Assembly (NCBI GenBank): GCA_934394595.1
Contig: CAKRRX010000010.1
Coordinates: 1 to 39,108, forward strand
From: an uncultured Blautia sp.
Lineage (GTDB): Bacteria; Bacillota; Clostridia; Lachnospirales; Lachnospiraceae
Direction: 5' to 3'
Length of the DNA stretch: 39,108 nucleotides
In this document: in pieces, positions 8,048 to 31,124 of the stretch
Position numbering within the stretch: position 1 is the stretch's first letter
How the letters are laid out: each line of letters begins with the position of its first letter
Position numbers and translations under genes: made by a program
The notes under the pieces: generated by a model
What the model was told of the DNA's origin: nothing
Seen by the model: only the letters and a program-made list of their open reading frames with translations
The model's database searches: none

Positions 8048-8052
8048 ATTTT

Positions 8053-10341: not shown

Positions 10342-10823
10342 GGCTGCACCTCCTTCTCCTGACCATTCTCATTTTTCTTATATTCCAGGTATTTCAGAAT
10401 ACTTCTGGTCTGTCCGATAAAACCGGAACAGCGACAGAGATTTCCTGCCAGGTATTCCTTGATTTCTTCTTCTGTAGGATCTTCTAATTCCTTTGTCATG
10501 GCAAGTACGTTCATAATAAATCCCGGATTACAAAATCCACACTGCTCCGCACCTTCATTTGCAAGAAAAGTACCAAACTCTTTTGCCTCTTCCTGAAGCC
10601 CTTCCATAGTCATGACCTTTTTACCGTCGATACGTGCTGCCAGAACGCTGCAGGACAGCACTGGCCTTCCCTCTACCAGAACTGTACAAAGGCCACAATT
10701 GGCAGTCTCACAGCCTCTCTTTACACTATAACATCCCAGGCTTCGAAGAAATTCCAAAAGCATGGTGTCCGGACGGATCTCTTCTTCTTTTTTGGCTCCA
10801 TTAAGCCAGAAATTAATTTTCAT
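10338..10823 (-). CDS. [2Fe-2S] subunit of the molybdenum hydroxylase
   Basis: Electron-transfer subunit with two [2Fe-2S] clusters that passes electrons from molybdenum to FAD. The plant-ferredoxin-type cluster uses Cys38, Cys43, Cys46 and Cys58 (GCETANCGLCTVL). The C-terminal helical cluster domain uses Cys95, Cys98, Cys130 and Cys132 (CGFCNPG and LCRCSG). At 161 residues it matches CoxS/XdhC-type small subunits. The start overlaps the FAD subunit by 11 bp and the end overlaps the large subunit by 4 bp, so the three are translationally coupled. Confidence 0.93.
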   Translation of the reverse strand: MKINFWLNGAKKEEEIRPDTMLLEFLRSLGCYSVKRGCETANCGLCTVLVEGRPVLSCSVLAARIDGKKVMTMEGLQEEAKEFGTFLANEGAEQCGFCNPGFIMNVLAMTKELEDPTEEEIKEYLAGNLCRCSGFIGQTRSILKYLEYKKNENGQEKEVQP

Positions 10824-11631
10824 CAGTCTTACCTCCCACTGCTTCCAATGCTCTTTTTGTGAGAACCTTCACAAGAAGAGATCTGTAATCTGCACTGCCT
10901 CGCATATTCCCGGCTGTGGGAACCTTTGCAGCAGCATAGTCTGCAAATCTGGAAAATGCATCCTTCTGTTCCTCCAAGGACTGCTTTTCCATATCCTTCA
11001 GGATATTTTCTTCATCTTTCAAAAGAAAGGCTTTTGCAGGGCGAGCACCATAAACAGCTTTCACACCACCTTCGGACCAGCTTATACAGCAGGCAAGCAC
11101 CGGAAAATCTGTCTTAGTGTTTCGCTGACTTAAATATGCCACCTTGATCGGCGTTTTCTTCACAATAATGCGTACCAGAATATCTCTGTCCTTTGGCATT
11201 TTCACAAAGTCAGAAAGACAGACCCTGCCGCCTTTAAAAAGCTCTACCTCTGTGTCCAGTGCCAGAAACATAGTCAGCACATCGGAGAATCCAAATCGTC
11301 CCCAGATGCTTCCTCCTACAGTGGCACAGTTGCGGAACTGAACTCCAACAATGTGGCGCAGGCTCTCTTTTATAGCACCATTTGTGTATGCATGAAGGCC
11401 CTCATGAAGCTCCAGATCACGCAGGGATGTCATACATCCGATGACAAATTCCTCATCCGTCTCTGTGATGGTATCCAGTCCCAGACCGGAAAGATCAATG
11501 GCTGTGGTCACATTTCTGCTGCCCATTTTCAGCCACACCATACCGCCCAGCACACAGGCAGTGCGCTTCTGGTTCAGCTCATAGGCTTCTTCCAGAGACT
11601 GCACTTTTACATAATTTTTTATCTTAAGCAT
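10813..11631 (-). CDS. FAD-binding subunit of the molybdenum hydroxylase
   Basis: CoxM/XdhB-type flavoprotein subunit (272 residues) that passes electrons from the iron-sulfur clusters to the final acceptor. The N-terminal FAD-binding domain carries VLGGMVWLKMG and the conserved CATVGGSIWG. The second half corresponds to the CO-dehydrogenase flavoprotein C-terminal domain. The WGRFGFSD stretch replaces the more usual small-residue loop after the second flavin motif, so this belongs to a divergent clostridial branch. The ATG at 11631 is preferred to one 15 codons upstream because AAAGGAAA lies just before it and family homology begins there. First gene of the operon. Confidence 0.88.
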   Translation of the reverse strand: MLKIKNYVKVQSLEEAYELNQKRTACVLGGMVWLKMGSRNVTTAIDLSGLGLDTITETDEEFVIGCMTSLRDLELHEGLHAYTNGAIKESLRHIVGVQFRNCATVGGSIWGRFGFSDVLTMFLALDTEVELFKGGRVCLSDFVKMPKDRDILVRIIVKKTPIKVAYLSQRNTKTDFPVLACCISWSEGGVKAVYGARPAKAFLLKDEENILKDMEKQSLEEQKDAFSRFADYAAAKVPTAGNMRGSADYRSLLVKVLTKRALEAVGGKTDEN

Positions 11632-11751
11632 GATAATTTCCTTTCTTTTATTATCGCTTATTTTGTTTTTTGACACAATGAAAAAGGCTTCCTGTAAAAT
11701 TCCCGGATCATATTCTATGGAAATTGGAGAAGTCTTCTTTTAAGTATCTTT

Positions 11752-11780
11752 AGTATAACAAGAAAGTTTTCAAATTTCCA
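11752..11780 (-). promoter_or_regulatory. Candidate promoter of the hydroxylase operon
   Basis: On the minus strand TGGAAA (11780-11775) and TATACT (11757-11752) are separated by 17 bp, with an extended -10 TG one base before TATACT. It would give a leader of about 115 nt. The leader shows no recognisable riboswitch. Confidence 0.4.
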
Positions 11781-11852
11781 GCGAAATGACATATTCAGAA
11801 TATTTTTTTGTTTTGATTTTATGCAAACTATATAGATATTTTCAAATAATTG

Positions 11853-11861
11853 TGTTATAAT
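11853..11861 (+). promoter_or_regulatory. Extended -10 promoter of the kinase-like gene
   Basis: TGTTATAAT at 11853-11861 is a full extended -10 element. There is no good -35 box 17 bp upstream. The transcript would start about 75 nt before the ATG at 11945. It is divergent from the hydroxylase operon promoter about 75 bp away. Confidence 0.45.
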
Positions 11862-11944
11862 ACGAAAAAGAACAGAAAATAGTTTTTGTAAGCTATTTTA
11901 TAACAAAAATAATCACAAATCCACCACAAAAGGAGGCGGCGTTT

Positions 11945-12541
11945 ATGAGTAAACGTATCATAACCATCAATCGTATGTTTGGAAGCAACGGACGTATTAT
12001 TGGAAAGGCTCTTGCTGAGGAACTGGGATTTAAGTTCTATGATAAGGAACTGATTGAAATGGCGAGCAAGGAGAAAAAAATCCCCTTCGATGAATTTGCC
12101 AGGGTAGACGAGAGAAAAGCCAGCCAGTGGCTTTATCCGGTGGATTACGAGCTTCAGATGAATCCGGAGTACCATTTTGTACCTATGAATGATGTGCTTT
12201 ATGATCTGCAGAAGAAGATCATTCTGGAGGCAGCAGATAAGGAAAACTGTGTGATCGTCGGACGCTGCGGCAATTACATTCTTCAGGATGTCAAAGATAA
12301 GCATCTGAGCCTGTTTATTTATGCACCTTTTGAAGAACGTGTAAAGACGGTTATGGCACGTACCGGACGGGAAGAAAAGAGTGTGCGTAAACTGGTAAAG
12401 AGAACCGACAAAGAGCGCCGGGCTTATTATGAATATTTCACAGATACCAACTGGCTGGATATGTTGCAGTATGATTTGTGTATCAACAGCAGTACGGTTT
12501 CTAAGGAAGAGATTGTGGAGATGGTGAAAAAGCTTATCTGA
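11945..12541 (+). CDS. Cytidylate kinase-like family protein
   Basis: P-loop nucleotide kinase fold of the cytidylate kinase-like family (198 residues). The N terminus IITINRMFGSNGRIIGKAL aligns with the family Walker A region (usually SREYGSGGREIGKKLA), followed by FYDKELIEMA. The central VIVGRCGNYIL and the Arg-rich lid RTGREEKSVRKLVKRTDKER are typical. Members of this family are common in Clostridia and mostly uncharacterised. True CMP kinase activity is not implied. Start supported by AAAGGAGG 9-10 bases upstream. Monocistronic, closed by a hairpin at 12558-12578. Confidence 0.85.
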   Translation: MSKRIITINRMFGSNGRIIGKALAEELGFKFYDKELIEMASKEKKIPFDEFARVDERKASQWLYPVDYELQMNPEYHFVPMNDVLYDLQKKIILEAADKENCVIVGRCGNYILQDVKDKHLSLFIYAPFEERVKTVMARTGREEKSVRKLVKRTDKERRAYYEYFTDTNWLDMLQYDLCINSSTVSKEEIVEMVKKLI

Positions 12542-12557
12542 GTACATAAAGATGATG

Positions 12558-12578
12558 GCCCCGCTGAATTGGCGGGGC
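12558..12578. terminator. GC-rich hairpin between convergent genes
   Basis: Perfect 7-bp stem GCCCCGC/GCGGGGC with a 7-base loop. It lies 16 bp past the kinase-like stop on plus and just beyond the end of the minus-strand DUF362 transcript. The following U-tract is weak on both strands. Confidence 0.55.
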
Positions 12579-12589
12579 TGTTAGTTCAT

Positions 12590-12652
12590 CTAAGCATTGC
12601 GCCGGTCTGCTGCATGAACCCCAACTGCCCCAAGGCGTCCGGTCTGCATCAT
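12590..12652 (-). CDS. Candidate 20-residue micro-ORF coupled to the DUF362 gene
   Basis: The start ATG overlaps the DUF362 stop codon as ATGA, followed by a second ATG. The 20-residue product contains GRLGAVGVHAADRRNA and stops 12 bp before the GC-rich hairpin. Its GC content is clearly higher than the surrounding intergenic DNA and it fills the whole gap between gene and terminator. No family is recognised. The DNA could instead be a conserved non-coding or repetitive element. Confidence 0.3.
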   Translation of the reverse strand: MMQTGRLGAVGVHAADRRNA

Positions 12653-13752
12653 TTTCCCAAATATCCTTTCAAAAATTCATAGATTTCTTCCTCAGTAGGC
12701 GGGCACCCCTCCAGGTGATGTGCAAAATGACGGGTGCAGTGGCCGATTCCCAGATTGCCGTTCTGATTTCTGTATCCCTGACCGATACAGATCCGGGTAT
12801 ACAGGCCAGAAAGCAACCCCTCTTGTTTCAGTCGGTCAAGAGCAGGAATCAGATTGCCATAACAGGCACTGCAGGATTCCACCTCTTCTACCGCATCTGC
12901 AAGCTCCACCACTTTCCGGGATTTTGGGATTGGCTTGCCAAAGTCCCCTCCGATGGCGCAGATCTCTGCCTGATGGATATCCGCACAGCCCACTCCAAGT
13001 GCAGCTGCTTTTACAATATATGGCACATCCTCTACCTGATAGTGCATCAGATCACAGACATAGGCATCCATAAGTACAGGGTCTTTTCCTGCCAGAATGC
13101 GGTTCATTTCAACCGGATTTCCTCCATCTTCAAAATCCAGATCCCCACAGATATTATCCACTACAATAAAATCCTGATGGATACCAAGCCCCAGATGGGC
13201 AATGGGATCATGAAGACCTAGTGCGTGGAATCTGCGCTTTTCCGAATTCGGCAAAAGTCCCTTCATATTCTTCAGTGCACAGGTGATCTTCGTCTGACAG
13301 TGTCCTTTTAAAACCGGTACATTGATAAGAAAGTCAAGGTCAAAAACACTTTTACAGATATTTAAGGTCATGTCACCACATTCTACTGAAATGCTTTTTT
13401 CTTTTTGCATGTCAAGAAAAGGAACGTGATATTTTTCACAGAGGGATTTGTATCCACAGACCTCATAGGACTCAGAGGTCTTATCTCCCACCCAGGAGCC
13501 CTCCATAATCACCAGATTGGAAAATCCCTTCTCCTGAAGATATTCCACAATTCCAGCCACCACCTCCGGGTGGGTGGTACCGCCCCAGTAAGCTTCCATG
13601 GGTGCTACCAGGTTTGGCTTGATGCCGATCCGCATGTTCTGCAAATCGCTCTTTTGCTCTATCTCTCCTGCCAGATCACAGGTTTCCAGCAATTCCATGG
13701 TCATTGCGGTGTAATCTGTTCCGCATTTTATATAAATCTGATTCTTCTTCAT
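12649..13752 (-). CDS. DUF362 domain-containing protein
   Basis: Cytoplasmic protein of 367 residues with the DUF362 pattern: MRIGIKPNLVAPMEAYWGGTTHPEVV near the N terminus, VIMEGSWVGDKTSES, a central LINVPVLKGHCQTKITCALKNMKGLLP, and DLDFEDGGNPVEMN. Family members are often iron-sulfur proteins of unknown function. Here Cys residues cluster near the C terminus (CSACYG), but no full ferredoxin CxxCxxC set is seen. The gene starts 7 bp after the ABC permease stop and so belongs to the GntR-ABC operon, which is an unusual partner. Any role is unknown. Confidence 0.85.
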   Translation of the reverse strand: MKKNQIYIKCGTDYTAMTMELLETCDLAGEIEQKSDLQNMRIGIKPNLVAPMEAYWGGTTHPEVVAGIVEYLQEKGFSNLVIMEGSWVGDKTSESYEVCGYKSLCEKYHVPFLDMQKEKSISVECGDMTLNICKSVFDLDFLINVPVLKGHCQTKITCALKNMKGLLPNSEKRRFHALGLHDPIAHLGLGIHQDFIVVDNICGDLDFEDGGNPVEMNRILAGKDPVLMDAYVCDLMHYQVEDVPYIVKAAALGVGCADIHQAEICAIGGDFGKPIPKSRKVVELADAVEEVESCSACYGNLIPALDRLKQEGLLSGLYTRICIGQGYRNQNGNLGIGHCTRHFAHHLEGCPPTEEEIYEFLKGYLGK

Positions 13753-17759: not shown

Positions 17760-18848
17760 TTAAGCCCGGATGGCCCAGCGCATCTTCGTTGAACGTGCCC
17801 GCCCGTTTCTGGCGCATTCCTGTGCTGAGGGACGGATCACATCCTTTGCATAATCTGCATAAATTCCTTCTTTATAGCCCTGTTTCAGGGCTTTTTTTAC
17901 CAGCTTGTCCTCACCGGAATGGAAGGTCAGAATTGCAGCTCTTCCACCTGGCTTTAAGGCTCCCGGCAGCTTCTCCATGAATTCATACAATACTTCAAAT
18001 TCATGGTTTACATCAATACGAAGTGCCTGAAAGGTTCTCTGACAGGTCTTTTTGATGGTATCTTTTTTCTCTTTTTCCGGAAGAAAATCCAGGGTTTTTT
18101 CAATAATCTCCCGGAGCTTTGTAGTGGTATCTATATGATTTCCCCTGCGTATCTCATCAGTAATGGCTTTTGCAAGCTCTTCACAGTAAGGTTCATCTGA
18201 ATTTTCATAAAGCATTCCGGCAAGCTCATCCCGCGTAATAGATTCCAGACGCTGGGCCGCACTGATACCGGTCTCCTGGTTCAGACGCAGATCCAGAGGT
18301 CCATCTGTTTTAAAAGAAAATCCCCTTTTGGGATTGTCAATCTGCATGGAGGATACTCCCAGGTCTGCCAGAAGAAAATCAAATCCCCCTGCTTCCTTTG
18401 CAATTTCATCCAGAGTGCAGAAATTCTGCAGTTTGATAGTCAGAATATCTTCCCCAAAGCCAAGGTCCTCCAGACGCTTCTTCGTCTTTGCAGCTTCTTC
18501 ATGATCCACATCTGTGGCATACATATGACCTTTTCCTTCCAGGCATTCCAGCATGGCCTTTGTATGTCCGCCGTATCCAAGGGTAGCATCAAATCCAGTC
18601 TGGCCTGGCTTGATTTCCAGAAAATCCAGGATTTCCTTTACCATAATGGAAATATGCATGCCAGCCGGAGTATTTCCTTTTTCTATTACATGCTGGATGG
18701 TATCCTGATATTTTTCCGGTTGCAGTTCCTTATATTTTTCTTCAAATTTTTTCGGATACTTACCTTTATAACGCACACGCCTTTTGTGGGACTGCTGGCC
18801 CTCTGCCTCTGCGCCTTGAAACTGCTTTTTTTCTTTTTCCTGTGACAT
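17760..18848 (-). CDS. rsmH: RsmH-type 16S rRNA methyltransferase, divergent paralogue
   Basis: SAM-dependent methyltransferase of the RsmH (MraW) family, which makes N4-methyl-C1402 in 16S rRNA. The family motifs are present with changes: FDATLGYGGHT instead of GTLGGGGHS, DLGVSSMQIDNPKRGFSF, GPLDLRLNQ, ALRIDVNHE and ILTFHSGEDKLVK. It carries an extra basic N-terminal segment of about 50 residues (KRRVRYKGKYPKKFEEKYKE) absent from standard RsmH, and it is not in a mraZ-ftsL-ftsI cell-division cluster. It is therefore probably a second, paralogous RsmH and its exact target is uncertain. AAGGAGAAA precedes the ATG. Confidence 0.8.
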   Translation of the reverse strand: MSQEKEKKQFQGAEAEGQQSHKRRVRYKGKYPKKFEEKYKELQPEKYQDTIQHVIEKGNTPAGMHISIMVKEILDFLEIKPGQTGFDATLGYGGHTKAMLECLEGKGHMYATDVDHEEAAKTKKRLEDLGFGEDILTIKLQNFCTLDEIAKEAGGFDFLLADLGVSSMQIDNPKRGFSFKTDGPLDLRLNQETGISAAQRLESITRDELAGMLYENSDEPYCEELAKAITDEIRRGNHIDTTTKLREIIEKTLDFLPEKEKKDTIKKTCQRTFQALRIDVNHEFEVLYEFMEKLPGALKPGGRAAILTFHSGEDKLVKKALKQGYKEGIYADYAKDVIRPSAQECARNGRARSTKMRWAIRA

Positions 18849-19070: not shown

Positions 19071-20003
19071 ATGAAGAAAAAATTTAGCATACTGCTGTGT
19101 GTGATGCTGCTTGCTCTTAGCGGCTGCCGTATTTCTGGCAATACCATCCGTTTTGGCGCAGCAGATATCGGTGGAATGTACTACTCATTTGCAAACACCT
19201 TCACAGAGCTGGCAAATGAGAGTTTTCCCTCTTACTCATTTGAATCACGTACTACAGCTGGTTCTGCAGCCAACCTAAGGCTCTTATCAGACAACTTTAT
19301 CGAGCTTGGAATCGCACAGGCTGACCTGATTTATGATGCCTATCAGAAAAACGGCAATCTCCGTGCCATTGCAGGACTTTACACAGAGGCATGCCAGCTG
19401 GTAGTAAGGGCAGATTCCGGCATTGAATCTCTTGATGATCTTTCCGGTCACACCGTAAGCATTGGTGCAGAGGAATCCGGAACAGAGTTAAATGCCAACC
19501 AGATCCTGGAATTTTCCGGCATTCCATCTTCCATTGTCACTACCAAAAATATGGATTACATTGAGGCTGCACATGAACTTGAAAACGGTGATATTGACGC
19601 ATTTTTCTGTACAGCCGGACTAACCACTACCATCATTGAAGAGCTTGCAAGAGAATGTGACATCCGCCTTATCTCCATTGATGACCGCACCATTGAAAAA
19701 ATGCTCTCCTATTCCAATGCCTACAGCCGTTATACTATTCCTGCCGGAACCTATGATGGGCAGGAAGAAGCGATCAATACTATTGGTGTGACATCTGTAC
19801 TTGTCACTTCAGACTCCATGTCTGAAGACCTGATCCAGCAGCTGACCTCCATGCTCTTTGAGAAATCAAAAGAGCTTCAGTATTCCACTTCCCTGGATCT
19901 TCATCTTGATGAAAAATTTGCCACAAGCAATATTCCTATTCCATTTCATTCCGGTGCAGCAAAGTACTATGAAGAGAATGGACTGGACGTGAACTTACAA
20001 TAA
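19071..20003 (+). CDS. TAXI-family solute-binding lipoprotein
   Basis: Extracytoplasmic binding protein of the TRAP-associated immunogenic (TAXI) type, 310 residues. A lipoprotein signal peptide ends in LALSGC with the lipidated Cys19. The mature part begins IRFGAADIGGMYYSFAN, matching the TAXI start (tGxxgGxYY), followed by FESRTTAGSAANLRLL, ELGIAQADLIYDAY, LRAIAGLYTEACQLVV and HTVSIGAEESGTELNA. TAXI proteins bind small organic acids or amino acids such as glutamate and 2-oxoglutarate. No DctQ or DctM membrane subunit follows. The next gene, 18 bp away, encodes a GltS symporter. Start supported by AAAGGAGCA. Confidence 0.9.
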   Translation: MKKKFSILLCVMLLALSGCRISGNTIRFGAADIGGMYYSFANTFTELANESFPSYSFESRTTAGSAANLRLLSDNFIELGIAQADLIYDAYQKNGNLRAIAGLYTEACQLVVRADSGIESLDDLSGHTVSIGAEESGTELNANQILEFSGIPSSIVTTKNMDYIEAAHELENGDIDAFFCTAGLTTTIIEELARECDIRLISIDDRTIEKMLSYSNAYSRYTIPAGTYDGQEEAINTIGVTSVLVTSDSMSEDLIQQLTSMLFEKSKELQYSTSLDLHLDEKFATSNIPIPFHSGAAKYYEENGLDVNLQ

Positions 20004-20021
20004 TCAACAGAAAGGCAAAAC

Positions 20022-21209
20022 ATGAGAATTCAATTAGATATGTATCAGACACTTGCAGTTGCTGTGCTGGTGCTTTTACTTGGAAATTTTCTGAGAAAAA
20101 GGATCAGCTTTCTGGAAAAATTCTGCATTCCTGCGCCTGTCATCGGCGGTCTTCTCTTCGCCATTATGACCTGCGTGTGCTACAGCGCCGGAATTGCCGA
20201 ATTTTCCTTTGACGATACCCTCCGTGAAGTATGCATGGTTTTCTTCTTTACATCCGTAGGCTTTCAGGCAAACCTCAAAGTTTTAAAAAGCGGTGGAAAA
20301 TCCCTTATCATCTTTCTTGGACTTGTGATCGCATTGATCCTGCTCCAGAACGTTACTGCCGTAGGACTGGCTAAAGTTCTGGGACTTGACCCTCTGATCG
20401 GAATGTGTACCGGTTCCATCCCTATGGTCGGTGGACATGGTACTGCCGGAGCTTTTGGACCGATTCTGGAAGATTTCAAGATCAGCGGCGCCACTACCAT
20501 ATGTACCGCAGCTGCCACATTCGGACTTATCGGCGGCAGCCTCATCGGAGGTCCCCTTGGTAAGCGTCTGATTGAAAAACATAACCTTCTCTCCACTGCT
20601 TCTACAGAGGACGACAGCCTTCTTGTGGAAGAAGAGAAAAAACATGAGCGACATACCACCATGTATCCTTCCGCTGTTTTTCAGCTGATCCTGGCTATTG
20701 GTCTTGGAACGATTTTTTCCATGTTTCTCACACAGACAGGACTTACCTTTCCAATTTACATTGGCGCAATGCTTGCAGCTGCACTGATGCGAAATATCTG
20801 TGAGTACACCAGGATCACCACCATCCATATGGGTGAGATCAATGACCTGGGTGGTATCAGCCTGTCCCTTTTCCTTGGTATGGCCATGATCACCTTAAAG
20901 CTCTGGGAGCTGGCTTCCCTTGCCCTTCCACTTATTATCCTGCTGGCAGCGCAGACCGTGCTCATCTGTGTCTTCACCTATTTCATTGAATTCAACATCA
21001 TGGGACGGGATTATGATGCTGCCATACTGGTAGCCGGAACCTGCGGTTTCGGAATGGGGGCCACCCCAAACGCCATGGCAAACATGCAGGCTGTATGCGA
21101 AAAATATGTACCTTCTGTCAAAGCTTATCTACTCATCCCTCTTGTTGGAAGCTTATTTGCAGATTTCCTTAACAGTCTTGTCATTACATTCTTTATCAAC
21201 ATACTATAG
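20022..21209 (+). CDS. gltS: GltS-type sodium/glutamate symporter
   Basis: Inner-membrane carrier of 395 residues with about ten to twelve helices in two inverted halves. The hallmark loops are both present: MVGGHGTAGAFGPILE in the first half and CGFGMGATPNAMANMQA in the second. A charged cytoplasmic loop (about 190-210, EDDSLLVEEEKKHERH) joins the halves. Known members co-transport Na+ and L-glutamate without a binding protein. Here the gene sits between a TAXI lipoprotein gene and a small repeat-protein gene, each 18 bp away. Dependence on the binding protein is an inference from that context. Confidence 0.92.
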   Translation: MRIQLDMYQTLAVAVLVLLLGNFLRKRISFLEKFCIPAPVIGGLLFAIMTCVCYSAGIAEFSFDDTLREVCMVFFFTSVGFQANLKVLKSGGKSLIIFLGLVIALILLQNVTAVGLAKVLGLDPLIGMCTGSIPMVGGHGTAGAFGPILEDFKISGATTICTAAATFGLIGGSLIGGPLGKRLIEKHNLLSTASTEDDSLLVEEEKKHERHTTMYPSAVFQLILAIGLGTIFSMFLTQTGLTFPIYIGAMLAAALMRNICEYTRITTIHMGEINDLGGISLSLFLGMAMITLKLWELASLALPLIILLAAQTVLICVFTYFIEFNIMGRDYDAAILVAGTCGFGMGATPNAMANMQAVCEKYVPSVKAYLLIPLVGSLFADFLNSLVITFFINIL

Positions 21210-21227
21210 TTTAAAGGAGTATCCATT

Positions 21228-21434
21228 ATGTTTAAAAAACTGAAAAAACTTTTCAATGCAAAGAAAGAACAGCATAAACATAATTATGATCTGACTTTTG
21301 ACAACGTAGCCATACCGGAAATTCACACCCACAAATCAGACAAGCACCAGGAAGAAGCCCCCAGTCAGCAGCCAATCCAATATGACAATGTAGCCATTCC
21401 GGAGGTTCACATCCGTGCTAAAAAAAATAAATAA
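21228..21434 (+). CDS. Small basic protein with an internal DNVAIPE repeat
   Basis: 68 residues, no known family recognised. The N terminus is strongly basic (MFKKLKKLFNAKKEQHKHN). The motif DNVAIPEIH at residues 25-33 recurs as DNVAIPEVH at 53-61, a 28-residue period, each preceded by a Tyr or Phe/Asp context and separated by a His/Gln/Glu-rich linker. There is no signal peptide or membrane helix, so it is probably cytoplasmic or membrane-surface associated through the basic end. AAAGGAG lies before the ATG, 18 bp after gltS, and a terminator follows 5 bp after its stop codon, so it is the last gene of this operon. It may be a regulatory or accessory subunit of the transporter. Confidence 0.75.
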   Translation: MFKKLKKLFNAKKEQHKHNYDLTFDNVAIPEIHTHKSDKHQEEAPSQQPIQYDNVAIPEVHIRAKKNK

Positions 21435-21439
21435 TCTGA

Positions 21440-21488
21440 TTACCAGAAAAAGAACGAGACCTGTAAAAAGTCTCGTTTTTTCTGGTAA
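21440..21488. terminator. Bidirectional intrinsic terminator
   Basis: Core stem ACGAGAC/GTCTCGT (21454-21460 and 21470-21476) extended outward by A-rich/T-rich arms and TTACCAGAAAA/TTTTCTGGTAA. U-tracts follow the core on both strands. It ends the plus-strand TAXI-gltS operon and the minus-strand nucleoside salvage operon, whose last gene punA stops 21 bp away. Confidence 0.85.
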
Positions 21489-21509: not shown

Positions 21510-22331
21510 TTACATATGGATCACAATCTCTGTCACCAGTTCTTTAAAAGCTTTCGCAACCCGGTCAGCAGTTTCCTGAACCTCCTTATGGTTCAGCTCT
21601 TCCTTTGAAATGCCTGCTGCCATGTTGGTAATACAGGAGATACCACATATTTCAAGACCCATATGACGTGCAGCCATTGCTTCACATGCAGTACTCATTC
21701 CCACTGCATCTCCGCCCCAGATGGATGCCATCCGCACTTCTGCAGGTGTCTCATAATTCGGTCCTGTAAACTGGACATACACCCCCTCCTGTATCGGAAT
21801 CCCACAGGTATCAGAAGCCTGTCGGATCACCTCCTGCAGCCGTCTGCTATATACCTCACTCATATCCGGAAATCTGCTTCCAAGCTCATCTATATTTGGT
21901 CCGATCAGTGGGCTTGGGATTCCTGTGGCAATATGATCTGTGATCATCATGAAGTCTCCAGGCCTGTAAGCCGGATTTACTCCACCAGCTGCATTGGTCA
22001 GCAACAGCTTCTTAGCCCCCATCATCCCCATCAGTCTTGTGGGAAGAACTACGTCTGACATGGGATACCCTTCATAGTAATGTACCCTTCCCTGCATGAT
22101 CACTACCGGTACCTCTTTTACATAACCAAATACAAAACGTCCCTTATGTCCGGCTACTGTAGACGTAGGAAAACCCTCAATCTCTGTGTAGGAAACGGTC
22201 GCCTCTATCTGTATCTCATCTGCATAATCTCCCAGACCAGATCCCAGGATCAGCGCCACCTCCGGTTTAAAATCTGTTTTTTTCCGGACACTTGCAAGAC
22301 AAGTTTCCAGTTTCTGATATAAGCTGTTCAT
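21510..22331 (-). CDS. punA: Purine-nucleoside phosphorylase, trimeric type
   Basis: Phosphorolyses (deoxy)inosine and (deoxy)guanosine to base plus (deoxy)ribose 1-phosphate. 273 residues with phosphate-binding GSGLG, GRVHYYEGY, TNAAGG, VQFTGPNYETPAEVRM and VGMSTACEA. The SCITNMAAGI stretch carries the Asn typical of 6-oxopurine-specific trimeric enzymes. The ATG at 22331 is used because AAGGAGAAGG lies upstream and the family starts here; an in-frame ATG 13 codons earlier lies in the regulator gene. Last gene of the nucleoside cluster. Confidence 0.95.
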   Translation of the reverse strand: MNSLYQKLETCLASVRKKTDFKPEVALILGSGLGDYADEIQIEATVSYTEIEGFPTSTVAGHKGRFVFGYVKEVPVVIMQGRVHYYEGYPMSDVVLPTRLMGMMGAKKLLLTNAAGGVNPAYRPGDFMMITDHIATGIPSPLIGPNIDELGSRFPDMSEVYSRRLQEVIRQASDTCGIPIQEGVYVQFTGPNYETPAEVRMASIWGGDAVGMSTACEAMAARHMGLEICGISCITNMAAGISKEELNHKEVQETADRVAKAFKELVTEIVIHM

Positions 22332-22347
22332 ATGCACCTTCTCCTTC

Positions 22348-23076
22348 TTAGAAGCACCCAAGCTTCTCATCTACTGTTTTTTTAAGCCCTTCATACTGTT
22401 TTTTATCAATCCAGATCTGATTGCCTTTTTTAGTGATCAACTGATCCGACTGAAATTTTTTAATGGCCCTGCTGATGCTTTTCAGACAAAGTCCTGTCTC
22501 ATCAGCCAGGTTCTGGCGGCTTTCATTGATACATAAAATGTCATTTTTGTTATATTTTTCAAACCAGTCTGCAAACAACACTGCCAGCCTGTCAGCTCCC
22601 TCCAGAAACAGATACAGACGATTTCTGCGTTCTTCTTCCAGAAGGGAAGCACAGGTAAGTTTTGCCTCCAGCCGAAATGCCTCCATATCGGAATAGATCC
22701 ATTTTTCATATTGGATTCTAGGAAGTCTGGCCACAATACAATCTGTTACTGTCTGTAAGGTAGTCTGGTAGAGAGGCTGTCCGAGGATCACCTCCATTCC
22801 TCCAAGGGCAATGAGATTGGTCGGTTTCATAAAGTCATAGGCAATACCGGATATTCTGTAATCTGTGGCTTTTACTCTTCCTTTTGCTACAAAAAAGATC
22901 GTATCTGCCGGTTCATTTTCCCGGATAAAGGTAGTTCCTGCCTTCATCACTTCACTTTGAAACAGATCCATAAGCCACAAAGGTGCTGTCCTGAAATAAG
23001 CCTCAAACTGCTTCTGTTTTTCTCTTTCCAATTCTCTTAAAAATGGCAGTACATCGTGTAAATACGTGTGTTTCAT
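22348..23076 (-). CDS. Crp/Fnr-family transcriptional regulator
   Basis: 242 residues: an N-terminal cyclic-nucleotide-binding-like beta-roll (about 30-135, FQSEVMKAGTTFIRENEPADTIFFVAKGRVKA) and a C-terminal Crp-type helix-turn-helix (about 175-225, SRQNLADETGLCLKSISRAIKKF). No Fnr-type cysteine cluster is apparent, so oxygen sensing is unlikely. The ligand is unknown, though a nucleoside or sugar phosphate from the pathway would fit. It lies between deoB and punA with 46 and 16 bp spacing and probably controls this cluster. GAGGAA precedes the ATG. Confidence 0.85.
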   Translation of the reverse strand: MKHTYLHDVLPFLRELEREKQKQFEAYFRTAPLWLMDLFQSEVMKAGTTFIRENEPADTIFFVAKGRVKATDYRISGIAYDFMKPTNLIALGGMEVILGQPLYQTTLQTVTDCIVARLPRIQYEKWIYSDMEAFRLEAKLTCASLLEEERRNRLYLFLEGADRLAVLFADWFEKYNKNDILCINESRQNLADETGLCLKSISRAIKKFQSDQLITKKGNQIWIDKKQYEGLKKTVDEKLGCF

Positions 23077-23122
23077 ACAAGTTCCTCATTTTTACAGATC
23101 ACATGGTTGTTTTCTTTTGTTC

Positions 23123-24313
23123 TCAGACCAGTTTATCCAAAATGGAGTGGCCAATAGTCCCTTCCGGCATTTCCACATCAAAATTATCTGCCACAGAGGC
23201 TCCGATCACAGCAAAAGTATCCTGATTTTTCATCGCTCCGCCATTTTCCATGGACAAAGAATAGGCAAGAAAAGGAACATACTCCCGTGTATGATCTGTT
23301 CCGCTGTAGGTAGGGTCATTTCCGTGATCTGCGGTAAGGATCAGAAGATCATCCTCTCGCAGCTTTTGTAACAGGACTCCCAGGTTCCGGTCAAATTTTT
23401 CGATTTCTCTACCATAGCCTTCCACATTTCGTCTGTGTCCCCACAATGCATCAAAATCCACCAGGTTTACAAAGCAAAGTCCCTTAAACTCTTCCTTACT
23501 GATCTCAATAGTCTGCTCCATTCCCTGCACGGAACTTTCGGAATGGTAAGTCTTTGTAATTCCCTCCCCGCAGAAAATATCATTGATCTTTCCCACACCG
23601 ATCACATCCAGACCATTGTCCTTCAGAGCATTTAATACAGTGAGTCCAGTGGGCTTTAGAGCATAATCATGGCGGTTGCTGGTACGCTTGAATTCACCTT
23701 TCTTTTTGCCTACATAAGGTCTTGCGATCACCCGGCCTACACGCCACTCATCTTTCATGGTGATCTCTCTTGCGATTTCACAGCACCGGTAAAGATTGGC
23801 CAGATCAAAGGTCTCCTCATTTCCACAGATCTGAAGGACAGAATCTGCAGAGGTATAGACGATCATAGCGCCGGTATTAATTTCTTCCTCTCCCAGTTCC
23901 TCTATGATCTGGGTTCCGCTGGCACTTTTATTTCCAATCACCCGTTTGCCGCACCGTTTTTCCAGTTCCCGGATCAGTTCCGGCGGAAAACCGGTGTCTG
24001 TAAAAGTAATAAACGGTTTCTCTGTGCGGATTCCCATCATTTCCCAGTGCCCGGTCATGGTATCCTTACCATTGCTGGTCTCCCCCATCCGCATGTAACG
24101 CCCAATAGGATGCTCTTCCGGATGCATATTTCCTGCCGGATGAAGATTCAGCATTCCAAGCTTCCGAAGATTGGGGATTTCAAGGGAACCCATTTTATCC
24201 AGGATATGACCGAATGTGTCAACTCCCACGTCACCGTATTTTTCTGAATCCGGCATTGCACCAATGCCAAGGGAATCCAGGACGATCACGAAAATCCTTT
24301 CATATTTTTTCAA
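23123..24313 (-). CDS. deoB: Phosphopentomutase
   Basis: Interconverts (deoxy)ribose 1-phosphate and 5-phosphate, linking nucleoside phosphorolysis to DeoC and the pentose phosphate pathway. Alkaline-phosphatase fold with two Mn2+: the N-terminal [15 protein letters not shown] carries the first metal Asp, [10 protein letters not shown] the phospho-acceptor Thr, and [24 protein letters not shown] the C-terminal metal ligands. A TTG at 24313 has GAGGAA six bases upstream and gives an N terminus ([14 protein letters not shown]) that aligns with the family. The ATG at 24328 lacks a ribosome binding site but cannot be excluded. It overlaps the end of add in either case. Confidence 0.93.
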
Positions 24314-25322
24314 AATAAAATTCCTCATTTCTGCTGCATTTTCTTGTTTTATTGCGAATTTTGTTATACAGATCTCCTTTGACTTCTTCTTTTGCAAATG
24401 CCGTATCTACAGCATTTTTCATAAGCAATGGAATTTCCTCATCCAAAATCCCATAATATTTCTGGATAAAAAGCAGTTCCCCGGTCAATGTGGTATCGCT
24501 CACTGTACGGTTGTCCGTATTTACAGAAACCTTCAGGCCTGCATCCAGAAATTCCCGTAAGGGGTACTGAGCAGTGCTTTCCACTGCTTTTGTCTGAAGA
24601 TTGCTGATGGGACACATTTCAATCCCAATGCCTTTTTGTGCCAGCTCTTTTTGCAGCCCTTGATGTCCTCTCATGGCAATTCCATGTCCGATTCTGGCTG
24701 CACCTGCTTTTACCGAGTCAATGATGTTCTGCACACTTCCGCACTCCCCTGCATGAAGGGTAAATGGCATTCCCATTTTCCTGGTATTTTCAAATAATTC
24801 CATAAATTGTGCCATAGGATAAGAAGCTTCTGCACCTGCTAAATCTGCCCCGCATACACCACTGCCAAGATATTCCCTTGCAGTTTTTATCATCCGGCAG
24901 TTATCCTCCTGGCTGTGATGACGCATGGCACAGGTAATCACACCAAACTCCACTCCAAAAGCCTCCCTGCCTCTTTCCAGCCCTTTTAAAAGGGCTTCGA
25001 TCACATGAGCACAGTCCATGTCATTGTTTTCTGATAAAAGAGGTGCAAAACGGATTTCTGCATAACAGACGTTTTCCAGGCTCATAGTCTTCAGCACATC
25101 ATAACCTGCTTCTTCCAGTCCTTTTTCATCCATCAGGCACAGCCCGGGAAGAGAAAATTTCTCCAGATATTCTGCCAGGCTGGTGCAGTCTGCAGCCACA
25201 CTTAGTTCCTGTGGCTGTACTGTTCTTCCAAGTCTTCTCTCTATAAATTCACGGCTAAGGGAACCGTCCAGATGACAATGCAGTTCCACCTTGGGAAGTG
25301 CCTTTATTTCTTCTGCTGTCAT
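24300..25322 (-). CDS. add: Adenosine deaminase
   Basis: Zinc amidohydrolase that converts (deoxy)adenosine to (deoxy)inosine for phosphorolysis. 340 residues with all signatures: zinc ligands His15 and His17 in ELHCHLDGS, His190 and Glu193 in LHAGE, His213 in [15 protein letters not shown], and SVNTDN with the metal-binding Asp270. Start has GAGGAA upstream. Its 3' end overlaps deoB. Confidence 0.95.
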
Positions 25323-25387
25323 ATCTGTTCCTCATTTCTTATGCAAAAGAACCAGCTGCAGCCCTTTTACATTTTTCAGTATTTTTT

Positions 25388-25813
25388 TCAGTTTCTACCC
25401 AGATTGGCAGGGCCGAATCCCAAAGGCAAAAGCTCTTTCAGAGTATAAATGTCATAATGCCCCCTGTCAACTGCCAATATGATCCAGAAGGTTTCCGGAT
25501 CACAAAATTCCATCATAACCTGTCTGCATACACCACAGGGCGCAGCATATTCTGTGAGTATTCCATCCTTGCCTCCAACAATACAGATTGCCTGAAATTC
25601 TTTTATCCCCTCACTGACTGCTTTGAAAAATGCGGTTCTCTCTGCACAGTTTGTAGGGGTATATCCTGCATTTTCGATATTGCATCCGGTATAAATCTGA
25701 CCATTTTTTCCAAGCAGAGCTGCGCCCACCTTAAAATTGGAATAGGGTGCATAAGAATATTCCAATTGACTGATGGCGGTGTCGATCAGCCTGCCGATCA
25801 ACTCTTTTTCCAT
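25388..25813 (-). CDS. cdd: Cytidine deaminase
   Basis: Homotetrameric zinc enzyme that converts (deoxy)cytidine to (deoxy)uridine, the substrate for Udp. 141 residues. Zinc ligands Cys56, Cys93 and Cys96 (TNCAERTA and PCGVCRQ) and the catalytic proton shuttle Glu58 are present, as is the substrate-binding GCNIENAGY. AAGAGGTG lies before the ATG. Confidence 0.95.
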   Translation of the reverse strand: MEKELIGRLIDTAISQLEYSYAPYSNFKVGAALLGKNGQIYTGCNIENAGYTPTNCAERTAFFKAVSEGIKEFQAICIVGGKDGILTEYAAPCGVCRQVMMEFCDPETFWIILAVDRGHYDIYTLKELLPLGFGPANLGRN

Positions 25814-25860
25814 TTCACACCTCTTTTTTACTGTTTCTTTTCTTTTTGTTCCAGAGTGAT

Positions 25861-26526
25861 TTAATATCCGGTGGCTTTTTCATTTTTTACAATTTTAATG
25901 ATGCGGCTGGTTCCCAGTCTGTCTGCTCCAAGAGCCAGAAATTTCTCAGCATCTTCCAGTGAGGAGATACCACCTGCAGCTTTCATCTTCACATTTGGGC
26001 CGATATGTCTGGAAAACAGTTCAATATCTTCAAAGGTTGCTCCTGCACCGCCAAATCCGGTGGAAGTCTTGATATAATCTGCGCCTGCCTCTGTTACGAT
26101 CTCACACATTTTGATTTTTTCTTCTTCAGTAAGGAAACAGGTCTCAATGATCACCTTTAGAATCTTGTCTGCGCATGCCTCTTTCAGGGTACGGATTTCC
26201 TTTTCAATGAGATCATATTTTTTATCCTTCAGCCAGCCGATATTGATGACCATATCAATCTCAGATGCTCCATTTGCAAGTGCATCCTTAGTTTCAAACT
26301 CTTTTGCTGCAGTTGTCATATAGCCGTTTGGGAACCCGATTACCGTACACACTGTCATTTTTCCAGCCATATATTCTGTCGCCTGTTTTACATAGCTTGG
26401 AGGGATACACACAGATGCAGTTCCATATTCCATAGCATCATCACAGATCTGTCTGATTTCCTCCCAGGTGGAAGGCTGCAGAAGCAGGGTGTGGTCTACA
26501 TGTTTTAAAATCTCTTTTACGTCCAT
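25861..26526 (-). CDS. deoC: Deoxyribose-phosphate aldolase
   Basis: Cleaves 2-deoxyribose 5-phosphate to acetaldehyde and glyceraldehyde 3-phosphate. 221 residues, TIM barrel. Schiff-base Lys153 in [12 protein letters not shown], the proton-relay Lys182 in VKMKAAGGI and Asp91 in EIDMVINIG are all present. It lies 21 bp after udp. Confidence 0.96.
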
Positions 26527-26547
26527 TATTTTTTCCTCATTTTCTAT

Positions 26548-27321
26548 TTACATATCTTCCTGAATCAGTCTACGCACTGCCTCTACAGCCACACGGATGG
26601 CCATATCGGTATCATGGACTACCGGATTGTCTAGCCCCAGTTTCTCTCTTTCCTGGTTTGCGATCACCAGGAAACAGGAACCTGCTCTTACCCGAAGCTT
26701 ACCTGCAGCAATAAAAAGTGCAGCAGACTCCATCTCAGAAGCCAGGCAGCCCATTTGTTTCCAGGCTTCCCATTTATTCATCAGCTCATAGCCTACTGGC
26801 ATTGCCTCAGGCTCATGCTGCCCGTAAAAAGCATCCTTACATTGTACCACTCCCACATGGTAGGAAAGGCCTTTTTCCTTCGCCGCTGCCACAAGGGCAT
26901 TGGTCACATCCAGGTTTGCCACTGCCGGATATTCGATTGGTGCATATTCCCTGCTGGTCCCTTCCATGCGGACAGCGCCGGTGGCAATCACCACGTCACC
27001 ACTTTTTACCTCCGGCTGCATACCACCGCAGGTGCCGATACGCACAAAAGTGTCTGCACCGCATCTGGTCAGCTCTTCTATAGCTATGGAAGCAGACGGG
27101 CCACCGATTCCTGTGGAAGTAACGCTTACTTTCACCCCATTTAAAGTACCTGTATACGTGATATATTCCCGGTTGTCTGCAATCAGTACCGGATTTTCAA
27201 AATACTGTGCGATCTTCACGCATCTTTTGGGATCACCGGGCAGGATCACATAGCGCCCCACTTCTCCCTTTGCCACCTGGATATGATACTGTCTGCTTGC
27301 ATCTTCTGAATAATTTTTCAT
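26548..27321 (-). CDS. udp: Uridine phosphorylase
   Basis: Nucleoside phosphorylase I family enzyme of 257 residues that splits uridine (and often deoxyuridine) with phosphate. Motifs: ILPGDPKR at 27-34, [26 protein letters not shown] with the phosphate-binding Arg94, and [10 protein letters not shown], whose Glu binds ribose. The length and the RIGTCGG motif favour Udp over hexameric DeoD. Start has AAGGAGAATG upstream. Confidence 0.92.
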
Positions 27322-27415
27322 AGTGTCACATTCTCCTTACTTGTATTCCAATACCTGCGAATTGTTCCACCTCTGCGCGGATTCCACAATTCTCCATTTC
27401 CATTATCTTTGTTCC

Positions 27416-28357
27416 TTATCTTTGCCCCTTATCGTAAGGAATGCCTTCTGCTTTCGGAGCTCTGGAGTTCTTGGATACAAAGACAAGAACGATCAGGGAA
27501 ATAATATATGGGAACATATTGTACAGGGTGCTTGGAAGCTTTAGGGCTACCAGTGCATCAAATCCTGTATATACATTTGACAGGGCACGGAACAGACCGA
27601 ACAGAAGCGCTGCCAGTCCAATGTTTACCGGTTTCCACTGTCCAAAGATCATAACTGCAAGTGCCAGGAAACCAAATCCCGCTACTCCATTCTCAAATTT
27701 CCACTCGCTGACCCCTGCAGTGATATATACAAGTCCGCCAAGCCCGCCCAGTGCGCCGGAGATCAGAACACCAGCATAACGCATTTTGTAAACATTGATT
27801 CCCACAGAATCTGCTGCCTGTGGATGCTCACCGCATGCCATAAGACGAAGGCCAAATTTTGTTTTGTATAAAACAATATAAGAAGCGATCAAAATAATCA
27901 GGGCAAAAAGCATGAACCAGCTGAATTCAAATTTCCCCATTTTTACAAGGAATGCTTTTTTTGCCGCTTTATAAGCCACTGTGGAAGATACATTGTCCGG
28001 ATTTTCTGCCATGTTGATGGCTCTTACAATTACAACAGCTGCTGCCGGTCCAAGAAGGTTCAGCGCAGTACCTGCCAGTGTCTGGTCTGCATTAAAATTG
28101 ATGGCTGCCACGCCAAGAAGAAGGGAAAATACCATTCCCACCAGTACGCTTGCCAACACTGCCAGAAGGATCACAAGCACTGCAGGAGCAGATTCCGGAA
28201 GATATTTCATCATCAGGGCACCCCCAAGTGCCCCCATTACCATAATTCCTTCCAGACCAATATTGATCACACCACTGTGTTCGGAAAAACAACCGCCAAG
28301 AGCTACGAGAATCAATACAGATGCAAATATCAAGGTATACTGGATCAGTAATAACAT
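27416..28357 (-). CDS. nupQ: Nucleoside ABC transporter permease
   Basis: Second membrane subunit of the importer (313 residues, about nine helices), BPD_transp_2 family. The N-terminal GGCFSEHSGVINIGLEGIMVMGALGG is characteristic of permeases paired with BMP-type binding proteins. The start codon shares a base with the stop of the preceding permease gene, so the two are coupled. The order SBP-ATPase-permease-permease is that of B. subtilis NupNOPQ. Confidence 0.9.
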   Translation of the reverse strand: MLLLIQYTLIFASVLILVALGGCFSEHSGVINIGLEGIMVMGALGGALMMKYLPESAPAVLVILLAVLASVLVGMVFSLLLGVAAINFNADQTLAGTALNLLGPAAAVVIVRAINMAENPDNVSSTVAYKAAKKAFLVKMGKFEFSWFMLFALIILIASYIVLYKTKFGLRLMACGEHPQAADSVGINVYKMRYAGVLISGALGGLGGLVYITAGVSEWKFENGVAGFGFLALAVMIFGQWKPVNIGLAALLFGLFRALSNVYTGFDALVALKLPSTLYNMFPYIISLIVLVFVSKNSRAPKAEGIPYDKGQR

Positions 28358-29496
28358 TATTTTTCTCCTCCTTTCTGCGCTTTTACAGCTTTCTTCTCGT
28401 CTCTTTTATCAAGATAACGGTTCAGCCAGAGTTTGAAGAAAAATACAAATCCGCACAGATAAATGATAAATGCGGAGATCAGATCAGAGATCTGGGCGCA
28501 GTACATAGTCTTATCCACATAGCTTCCGCCGCTGGTAATATGCTGGATAAAATAGGAGGAAAAAACAGTTCCGATAGGGTTCAGGCCTCCCAGGAACGCA
28601 GCTGCAATTCCGTTAAAGCCCATTCCCGGCACTGTAGTCTGCTGTACCATCCAGTTCTCAATTCCACTTAAATAGAAAACAGCTGCGCCTAGACCTGCAA
28701 GCCCGCCTGCGATCATCATAGTGACAATAGTGTTTCTCTTTTCTTTCATTCCGCAGTATTTTGCAGCATTTTTGTTCATACCTGTGGCTTTCAGTTCAAA
28801 ACCGAATTTTGTTTTTTCCAGAACCACCCATACGACGATGGCCATCACTACAGAAATGATCAGACCAATGGAAACGAATTTGTTACCGGAAAAAATATTG
28901 TCCAGGCCACAGTTTGGCATCAGAGCACTTTTATTTCCACTGGAAAGGTCCACGGTATAAGGGGTGCTCTCGGATTTCACCTGTGTGAGAAGCATATTTA
29001 CCACATACAAAGAGATCCAGTTCAGCATGATACAGGAGATAACCTCATTTACATTAAAGTACGCTTTTAATGCACCTGAGATTCCTCCCAGAAGGGCAGC
29101 AATTACAATGGCTGCCAGCATACATACATACCAGGGCATACCAAATTTCAATGCAAAATATAAGGATGCACCTGCTCCTACTACATATTGTCCCGCTGCC
29201 CCGATATTAAACAGACCTACTTTGTATGCGAACAGGACAGACAGGGAACACATCAAAAGAGCGGAAGCCTTTACCAGCGTAGTTCCCATGTATTTCAGCA
29301 TGGCTGCCTGACTTGGATAATAAAAATAGTTTTTCAGGATTGCTGCTATGGCTTCTGCAGCACCTGCAGGATTGATGATCAGCAGTACGATATATCCGAT
29401 AAAAAGGCCAATCACAATGCAAAGAAGAGAGGCAATAATGGTCTGAACCGCATTATTTCTCAGAATACTTTCTTTTTTTCCGGATTCATTGTTCAT
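28357..29496 (-). CDS. nupP: Nucleoside ABC transporter permease
   Basis: First membrane subunit (379 residues) with about ten helices. It contains YKVGLFNIGAAGQYVVGAG, the permease motif equivalent to that in its partner, and a long periplasmic-side loop (LTQVKSESTPYTVDLSSG). The ATG at 29496 has GGAGAAAAAGAG upstream and overlaps the ATPase gene by 11 bp; an ATG 15 codons earlier lies within the ATPase gene and lacks this site. Confidence 0.9.
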   Translation of the reverse strand: MNNESGKKESILRNNAVQTIIASLLCIVIGLFIGYIVLLIINPAGAAEAIAAILKNYFYYPSQAAMLKYMGTTLVKASALLMCSLSVLFAYKVGLFNIGAAGQYVVGAGASLYFALKFGMPWYVCMLAAIVIAALLGGISGALKAYFNVNEVISCIMLNWISLYVVNMLLTQVKSESTPYTVDLSSGNKSALMPNCGLDNIFSGNKFVSIGLIISVVMAIVVWVVLEKTKFGFELKATGMNKNAAKYCGMKEKRNTIVTMMIAGGLAGLGAAVFYLSGIENWMVQQTTVPGMGFNGIAAAFLGGLNPIGTVFSSYFIQHITSGGSYVDKTMYCAQISDLISAFIIYLCGFVFFFKLWLNRYLDKRDEKKAVKAQKGGEK

Positions 29497-31030
29497 TGCT
29501 CTTTTTCTCCTTTCTCTTTGATCCTGCCATGTAAAGCCCAAGCTCCTCTACGGTTACTTTCTTAGGATCAAATTCTCCTACGATTTCACCTTCGTACATT
29601 ACCAGTATACGATCCGATACATTCATAACCTCATCCAGTTCCAGGCTTACCAGAAGAACGCCTTTTCCTGCGTCTCGAGCCTGTACCAGCTGCTTGTGTA
29701 CATGCTCGATGGCTCCTACATCCAGACCTCTGGTAGGCTGTACTGCAATGAGAAGCTCCGGATTTTTGTCGATTTCCCGGGCAACAATGGCTTTCTGCTG
29801 GTTTCCACCTGACATGGATCTCGCCTTTGTCACAGCTCCCTGTCCGGAACGGATATCAAACTGGTCGATCAGGCGGTTGGCATATTTGCGGATCTCTTTT
29901 CGTTTCAGAAAGCCCAGCTTATTGGTAAACTGTGGTTCAAAATACCGCTGCAGCACAATGTTGTCTTCCAGGGAATAATCCAGAACCAGTCCGTGTTTGT
30001 GGCGATCCTCCGGGATATGGCTCATTCCAGAGGTAAGGCGCTCACGGATCGGCATGCTGGTTATATCTTTCCCATTCATAGTAATGGTACCACTCTTTAA
30101 TGGCTCCAGACCGGAAAGTCCATAGACCAATTCAGTCTGTCCATTTCCGTCAATTCCTGCGATACATACGATCTCACCTCTGTGTACCTGCAGGGAAACA
30201 CCGTTTACTGCATTGTTTTTGTGTCGCTTGGACGCAACAACCATATCTTTTACATCCAGAACCACTTCTCCGGGTTTTGCTTCTTCTTTTTCTACCACAA
30301 AGTTTACATCTCTTCCTACCATCATGGCAGAAAGCTTCTCCGGATTGGTATCCTTGATATCTACAGTGCCGATATATCTGCCCTTGCGAAGGACCGTACA
30401 GCGGTCTGCAACCTGCATGATCTCACCTAGCTTATGGGTGATAAACAGAATGCTCTTGCCTTCTGCTGCAAGATTTTTCATGATCTGCATCAGTTCCTGG
30501 ATTTCCTGTGGAGTCAGTACTGCAGTAGGCTCATCAAAAATCAGAATCTCATTGTCCCGGTACAGCATTTTCAGGATCTCTGTTCTCTGCTGCATCCCCA
30601 CTGTAATATCCTCAATAATGGCATCCGGTTCTACTGCCAAGCTATATTTTCTAGAAAGCTCCAGCACCTTTTTCCGGGCATCATCTTTCTGGAGAAAGCC
30701 ATTTTTAGTAGTTTCTACGCCCAGAATGATGTTGTCAAGAACACTGAAACACTCCACCAGCTTAAAATGCTGATGTACCATTCCGATTCCCAGATCATTT
30801 GCATCATTTGGATCCTTGATCTCAACTTTTTTGCCGTCTTTGCGGATCTCACCTTCTTCTGGCTGATACAGACCAAAAAGAACGCTCATAAGGGTTGATT
30901 TTCCTGCTCCGTTTTCCCCAAGGAGCGCATGGATCTCACCTTTTTTTAACTGAAGTGTGATATTGTCATTTGCGATGATTCCCGGAAAACGTTTGGTGAT
31001 TCCCAGCATTTCAATTGCATATTCACTCAT
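29486..31030 (-). CDS. nupO: Nucleoside ABC transporter ATPase with two nucleotide-binding domains
   Basis: 514 residues with two fused ABC domains. The first has Walker A GENGAGKST (38-46), signature VGMQQR and Walker B ILIFDEPTAVLTP. The second has a degenerate Walker A GIDGNGQTE, signature SMSGGNQQKAIVARE and Walker B-like LLIAVQPTRGLDVGA. One canonical and one degenerate site is normal for this sugar/nucleoside importer family. It lies about 225 bp after the binding-protein gene, with a long hairpin between. Confidence 0.92.
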   Translation of the reverse strand: MSEYAIEMLGITKRFPGIIANDNITLQLKKGEIHALLGENGAGKSTLMSVLFGLYQPEEGEIRKDGKKVEIKDPNDANDLGIGMVHQHFKLVECFSVLDNIILGVETTKNGFLQKDDARKKVLELSRKYSLAVEPDAIIEDITVGMQQRTEILKMLYRDNEILIFDEPTAVLTPQEIQELMQIMKNLAAEGKSILFITHKLGEIMQVADRCTVLRKGRYIGTVDIKDTNPEKLSAMMVGRDVNFVVEKEEAKPGEVVLDVKDMVVASKRHKNNAVNGVSLQVHRGEIVCIAGIDGNGQTELVYGLSGLEPLKSGTITMNGKDITSMPIRERLTSGMSHIPEDRHKHGLVLDYSLEDNIVLQRYFEPQFTNKLGFLKRKEIRKYANRLIDQFDIRSGQGAVTKARSMSGGNQQKAIVAREIDKNPELLIAVQPTRGLDVGAIEHVHKQLVQARDAGKGVLLVSLELDEVMNVSDRILVMYEGEIVGEFDPKKVTVEELGLYMAGSKRKEKKSNEQ

Positions 31031-31075
31031 CTTGACATTTTCTCCTTTTTCTTCATAGGAAAGGTCCCACCAGAC

Positions 31076-31124
31076 TTCTTTATCAGCACAGGCATCTTTC
31101 GCTTATGCCTGTGCTGATAAAGAA
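31076..31124. repeat. 20-bp perfect inverted repeat between nupN and nupO
   Basis: Arms at 31076-31095 and 31105-31124 are exact complements around a 9-base loop. On the minus (operon) strand no U-tract follows, so it is not a typical terminator. In many ABC importer operons such a hairpin protects the binding-protein mRNA from 3' decay and gives that gene a higher expression than the membrane genes; that role is inferred. Confidence 0.7.

Follow-up and report, generated by a model that had tools for sequence, protein, structure and literature searches.

A conserved motif protein gene accompanies TAXI-linked GltS carriers and may encode a cytoplasmic partner of the transporter

In a 39,108-nucleotide stretch of DNA from an uncultured Blautia sp. 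(the window, meaning the whole stretch that was analyzed), genes for a TAXI solute-binding lipoprotein and a GltS carrier are followed by a third gene, encoding a 68-residue protein with two copies of a nine-residue motif. This motif is found in the open reading frame (ORF) after gltS at 69 of 79 testable loci, and in the genomes searched it is restricted to loci with the TAXI type of GltS. The TAXI-GltS pairing is sound but already known, having been described in Bordetella pertussis and relatives in August 2025 (Jaques et al., 2025; PMC12344293, cited here and below for the sections examined); the third gene with its motif is the new part, and neither the motif protein nor its grafting onto other proteins was found in print among open-licence PMC papers. 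Our explanation of the whole, to which we give a probability of a little under 0.6, is that the locus encodes a TAXI-GltS glutamate cassette together with a third protein that docks on, or regulates, GltS.

The three-gene locus and the TAXI-GltS pair

The three genes share the plus strand, with 18 bases between the TAXI gene and gltS and again between gltS and the 68-residue ORF, and they end at a single hairpin (Table 1), an arrangement that an earlier note on this DNA had read from the sequence and that the ORF coordinates and the hairpin bear out. The hairpin is common to the three-gene operon and to a convergent phosphorylase-family gene, and in a separate terminator listing its inner part was assigned to the minus strand. 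The same note's account of the products also holds. The first product is a TAXI protein by its matches to TIGR02122 (E 4.9e-78) and PF16868 (E 8.3e-65) and to PDB entries 1us4 and 8s4j, with a signal peptide ending in the lipobox LSGC at Cys19. The second matches TIGR00210 above the curated cut-off (E 1.9e-108) and carries the two hallmark motifs, which we take to serve as the pore loops of the carrier and whose residues are invariant or nearly so across the 55 rows of alignment A1; profile match and motifs together place it in the ESS family of GltS. The third is a repeat protein (DNVAIPEIH and DNVAIPEVH).

Table 1. Features of the three-gene locus, with positions in the window
Feature	Position	Strand	Basis or value
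TAXI solute-binding lipoprotein gene, 310 aa	19071..20003	+	TIGR02122, PF16868, PDB matches
gltS, sodium/glutamate symporter, ESS family, TAXI-linked clade, 395 aa	20022..21209	+	
GltS pore-loop motif 1, GGHGTAGAFG, residues 137-146	20430..20459	+	sequence, alignment A1
GltS central loop, residues 197-215, candidate docking surface	20610..20666	+	residue conservation
GltS pore-loop motif 2, GFGMGATPNAMANM, residues 342-355	21045..21086	+	sequence, alignment A1
Motif protein gene, 68 aa, proposed cytoplasmic docking or regulatory subunit	21228..21434	+	
N-terminal basic helix of motif protein, residues 2-14	21231..21269	+	AlphaFold model, alignment A2
Motif copy 1, DNVAIPEIH, residues 25-33	21300..21326	+	sequence, alignment A2
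Motif copy 2, DNVAIPEVH, residues 53-61	21384..21410	+	sequence, alignment A2
Terminator hairpin, operon end, facing convergent gene	21441..21487	.	-25.5 kcal/mol

Residues Y45 and Q93 of VcGluP, both shown to be important for glutamate there, align with Y37 and Q83 of the TAXI protein, and these are predicted from the alignment to be its glutamate-site residues. By way of VcGluP they also correspond to the two binding-site residues tested by Jaques et al., who report that the binding domain of a gltS-adjacent TAXI protein binds L-glutamate with a Kd of 180 nM (PMC12344293). We infer that glutamate is the TAXI ligand at this locus as well. A segment near the C-terminus of the TAXI protein, SNIPIPFHSG, bears a faint likeness to the nine-residue motif that is probably due to chance.

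The pairing is not specific to this strain. Here the TAXI gene lies directly beside gltS on the same strand, and of 326 gltS loci the best 80 were taken as the nearest; in 78 of them TAXI adjoins gltS or is fused to it, with a single ORF encoding both in 16 of the 78. In a tree of GltS sequences, built by a short search with 11 hand-chosen genes of the 39 TAXI-less ones from Clostridia, the TAXI-linked GltS proteins form one clade (SH-aLRT 99). The proposal in the earlier note of a binding-protein-dependent transporter built on GltS is supported by this recurrent pairing and fusion, and the class is already published: conventional-size TAXI genes beside gltS and TAXI-GltS fusions of Lachnospiraceae are in print, with functional coupling of the two proteins awaiting experimental proof according to the authors (PMC12344293).

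It would also be conceivable that the two proteins work apart, with GltS transporting alone and the TAXI protein acting as a sensor or serving a TRAP permease encoded elsewhere. Most GltS proteins operate without a binding protein (PMC12344293), DctM genes occur in G001, the closest relative (up to 368.7 bits), and two genomes with the TAXI type of GltS, G009 and G010, keep the carrier and the motif with no TAXI match over the cut-off. We nevertheless consider this reading quite improbable in view of the 78 paired loci out of 80, the 16 single-chain fusions, and the eight of 20 hand-chosen genomes in which TAXI passes the cut-off and DctM has no match, which makes a TRAP permease an unlikely partner of TAXI there. 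In the window itself, Pfam scans of the 32 ORFs with 190 aa or more gave no TRAP membrane subunit, in agreement with the earlier note; the objection named there, a TRAP permease elsewhere as the true partner, is weakened in those eight genomes and keeps some force in G001.

The neighborhoods of the loci gave no clue to the substrate when ORFs with 130 codons or more around 85 loci were clustered, and besides TAXI, gltS and overlapping frames no cluster occurred in more than eight loci; one neighbor cluster was present in eight, in changing positions. Two loci have a tandem pair of TAXI genes upstream of gltS (L072, 3928-5946; L073, 3937-5946), possibly two binding proteins supplying one carrier. 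Upstream of TAXI on a plasmid of Lachnospira eligens (L161, NC_012780.1) stands a gene with the annotation alanine racemase, relatives of this gene hold the same place at L011, L012 and L013, and these four loci may be linked to D-amino acids; the gene after gltS on the plasmid is annotated as hypothetical protein WP_012740645.1.

The remainder of the window holds several other gene groups. Two of them are on the minus strand: 7019-13752 holds molybdopterin-dependent dehydrogenase-like genes (MoCoBD, FAD_binding_5), which have DUF6077 and DUF362 neighbors, and 21510-32419 holds genes for nucleoside uptake and salvage, comprising two phosphorylase-family genes and those for an adenosine deaminase, a DeoC/LacD-family aldolase, a PnrA-type binding protein, an ABC ATPase and two permeases. 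A minus-strand gene beside the transporter genes (17760-18848) encodes a MraW-family methyltransferase in which a basic N-terminal extension precedes the domain, the latter beginning only at residue 64, and a plus-strand ORF of 571 residues (36347-38062) had no Pfam match at E 1e-8.

A motif gene that follows TAXI-type gltS

No Pfam or NCBIfam match was obtained for the 68-residue ORF. A search with the protein matched all 104 candidate proteins at E ≤ 1, and a profile search matched 1641 of 4609 candidate protein clusters at E ≤ 0.001; among the 120 profile matches listed, the few names shown were all 'hypothetical protein'. In two comparisons, both at saturated dS, its dN/dS came to about 0.05; against L001, the nearest locus, the value was 0.051. 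Because of these matches and this dN/dS the ORF looks like a genuine gene.

The consensus of the motif is [DE]N[LV]A[IV]PE[IV]H. Counted with a relaxed protein pattern, two copies are present in 51 of the 69 proteins that have it, one copy in 15 and three copies in 3. In both repeats the A, P and E are invariant across the 31 hand-picked rows of alignment A2, an invariance that among the 69 proteins arises partly by construction, since the relaxed pattern used to find them demands A or S, P and E. The final His is present in 102 of 126 copies and is otherwise Arg, Leu, Lys or Ile. Some relatives have a shorter N-terminal basic helix or none, and modeled alone by AlphaFold the protein is a short helix followed by coil (mean pLDDT 73.8, scores 63-86, pTM 0.21).

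Of the 80 loci, L074 was left out of the count because its contig ends at gltS, and of the remaining 79 the motif is missing after gltS in ten (L023, L039, L049, L050, L053, L065, L068, L069, L070 and L076), which means that it is not essential everywhere. The motif state changes at least six times on the GltS tree and the rows without it branch among those that carry it, as is consistent with an ancestral motif that was lost several times.

The presence of the motif was compared with that after other genes. In a draw from Clostridia (43 GltS matches above 250 bits from 391 genomes, weaker matches being left out), the relaxed pattern was found after none of the 39 TAXI-less gltS genes, and the motif accompanied all four TAXI-linked ones, at L145 in degenerate form. 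In a draw from Negativicutes (70 loci taken from a longer list of strong matches in 150 genomes, with two genes near contig ends dropped and duplicates counted once), the pattern was found after none of the 69 TAXI-less gltS genes examined, and the single TAXI-linked one has the motif. After the ends of other ORFs of at least 200 codons, taken on both strands, the pattern occurred in 15 of 682 cases, and none of the matches listed from these 15 has [DE]xxA[IV]PE. A chance repeat is rejected by the difference between 69 of 79 loci and these three controls.

A search at the DNA level gave the same association. A degenerate DNA pattern had 21 sites in 14 of 19 genomes with the TAXI type of GltS, all of them beside gltS by coordinates and one of them marking a further TAXI-GltS locus of G018. 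Reversed, the pattern had no site in the 19 genomes. Three of the five genomes lacking a site are those of the motif-less loci L039, L049 and L065, and at the other two, L041 and L080, the motif is present but falls outside the DNA pattern. In 299 genomes of the family the pattern had sites in 11 genomes, beside gltS in seven of them, one being a gltS remnant, and away from gltS and off-consensus in four, with the reversed pattern having one. The remnant (L160, in G120) consists of the 35 C-terminal residues of GltS, with a one-motif ORF still adjoining. The earlier note had placed the repeat protein beside a TAXI-GltS idea that stands; what it missed is that the third gene is a conserved member of the system.

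Motif fusions, site of action and candidate partner

At nine loci the motif stands N-terminal to another domain, drawn from five families: Nudix (L014), M20 amidohydrolase (L019, L031), nitroreductase (L029, L037, L058), TSCPD (L041) and isochorismatase (L051, L057). Enzymes of these families are normally cytoplasmic. Within the first 60 residues, no 15-residue stretch with mean hydropathy above 1.3 was present in any of the 69 motif proteins. Judging by the enzyme fusions and the lack of hydrophobic stretches, the cytoplasm is the most likely place of action of the motif. At L063, L064, L071, L072, L073 and L080 the motif is preceded by a segment of about 45 residues, which had no Pfam match in L064, the one scanned.

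GltS is the simplest partner for the motif, since the motif follows one clade of GltS and does so even where a TAXI match is lacking (G009, G010). Within the carrier, attention falls on the central loop, which we take to lie on the cytoplasmic side. Six of its residues (D197, L201, E203, H208, R210 and Y215) are conserved at 0.96-1.00 in 73 motif-bearing rows, at 0.00-0.23 in the 39 TAXI-less rows, and at 0.90-1.00 in the 10 motif-less TAXI-linked rows. The loop is thus a candidate docking surface that, being equally conserved in the motif-less loci, may instead serve TAXI or something else. An attempt to find GltS residues that track the motif rather than TAXI was unsuccessful with the 10 motif-less rows, which are few and of which five fall in one tight clade.

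In the explanation that we favor, the TAXI lipoprotein, anchored outside the membrane, would capture glutamate or a close relative and pass it to GltS, a sodium symporter of the elevator type. The third gene would supply a mostly disordered cytoplasmic protein whose motif copies would each attach to the cytoplasmic side of one GltS protomer, with the clade-specific central loop as the probable site, and one motif protein might in this way clasp a GltS dimer and tune its turnover. A ratio of one copy to each protomer suggests itself, since GltS of E. coli is a dimer (PMC12344293) and most motif proteins have two copies. Where the motif is fused to an enzyme, it would bring that enzyme to the carrier.

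A different cytoplasmic partner for the motif protein, such as a signaling hub of the PII kind, a protease or a metal, together with a third gene that accompanies the cassette solely because regulation is shared, would leave the TAXI-GltS transporter as it is. When GltS and the motif protein were modeled by AlphaFold as a single chain, made by reading stop codons as Gly, pLDDT was 25-32 across both motif copies and there was no sign of docking, as this alternative would have it; the test is weak, since the tether starts at the C-terminus of GltS, which is presumably on the outer side. The 6 His and 9 acidic residues among the 68, and the ten loci without a motif, point the same way. Set against this, the motif remains tied to TAXI-type GltS although the surrounding genes vary, is unseen beside 108 TAXI-less GltS genes, and in its strict DNA form has no other site in the 14 genomes where it is present. 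On this balance another partner seems unlikely, and a metal-binding role is ranked low because the His is replaceable, being kept in 102 of the 126 copies.

A pure inhibitor or plug of GltS, with the fusions arising as neutral read-through accidents with whatever gene lies downstream, is a rather doubtful account. The five fusion families are unrelated, as would be expected if chance picks the partner, and the central cytoplasmic loop of GltS reportedly modulates turnover, according to the title of a study by Krupnik from 2011. Yet fusions have been kept, with nitroreductase at three loci, isochorismatase at two and M20 at two, although the members of each of these sets are close relatives on the tree. 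The fusions also allow a broader version of docking on GltS, which we put forward tentatively: the motif may be a portable address tag that holds any tagged cytoplasmic protein at the inner face of the TAXI type of GltS. The binding protein would then work on the outer side and the elevator within the membrane, and on the inner side would sit a tagged effector or enzyme that is swapped from one lineage to another.

Comparison with known transport systems

Docking of the third protein on GltS, if it holds, gives the conserved third gene a predictive value, in that it points to an inner partner for the carrier and to a defined peptide that can be tested, and the portable motif offers a route to enzymes that may work at the transporter. 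The nearest known system is TAXI-GltS of Bordetella, which is alike in that TAXI is genetically tied to GltS with no TRAP membrane gene nearby (PMC12344293) and in that the Tyr and Gln central to glutamate binding are conserved here. The Bordetella protein BP0403 is elongated and dimeric, has an extra domain and is encoded downstream of gltS, whereas the TAXI protein here is of ordinary size and encoded upstream; and the sections of that paper examined describe no third component, in contrast to the motif protein of the present locus (PMC12344293).

TAXI-TRAP transporters such as VcGluP likewise have a TAXI binding protein with the glutamate-site residues, but the present locus differs from them in that no DctM-type permease was found among the window's ORFs of 190 aa or longer, nor anywhere in eight of the 20 related genomes. 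The carrier resembles GltS of the ESS family in its family match above the curated cut-off, and CitS of the 2HCT family in the CitS-like fold of its model; unlike other GltS and CitS proteins, it belongs to a TAXI-linked clade marked by a conserved central loop of its own and by companion genes to either side. Small proteins that regulate transporters are known, among them SgrT, which acts on PtsG, and AcrZ, which acts on AcrB. The motif protein resembles these in its small size and its proposed action on a transporter, and differs from them in being a disordered protein built around a short motif, usually in two copies, that is portable onto other proteins.
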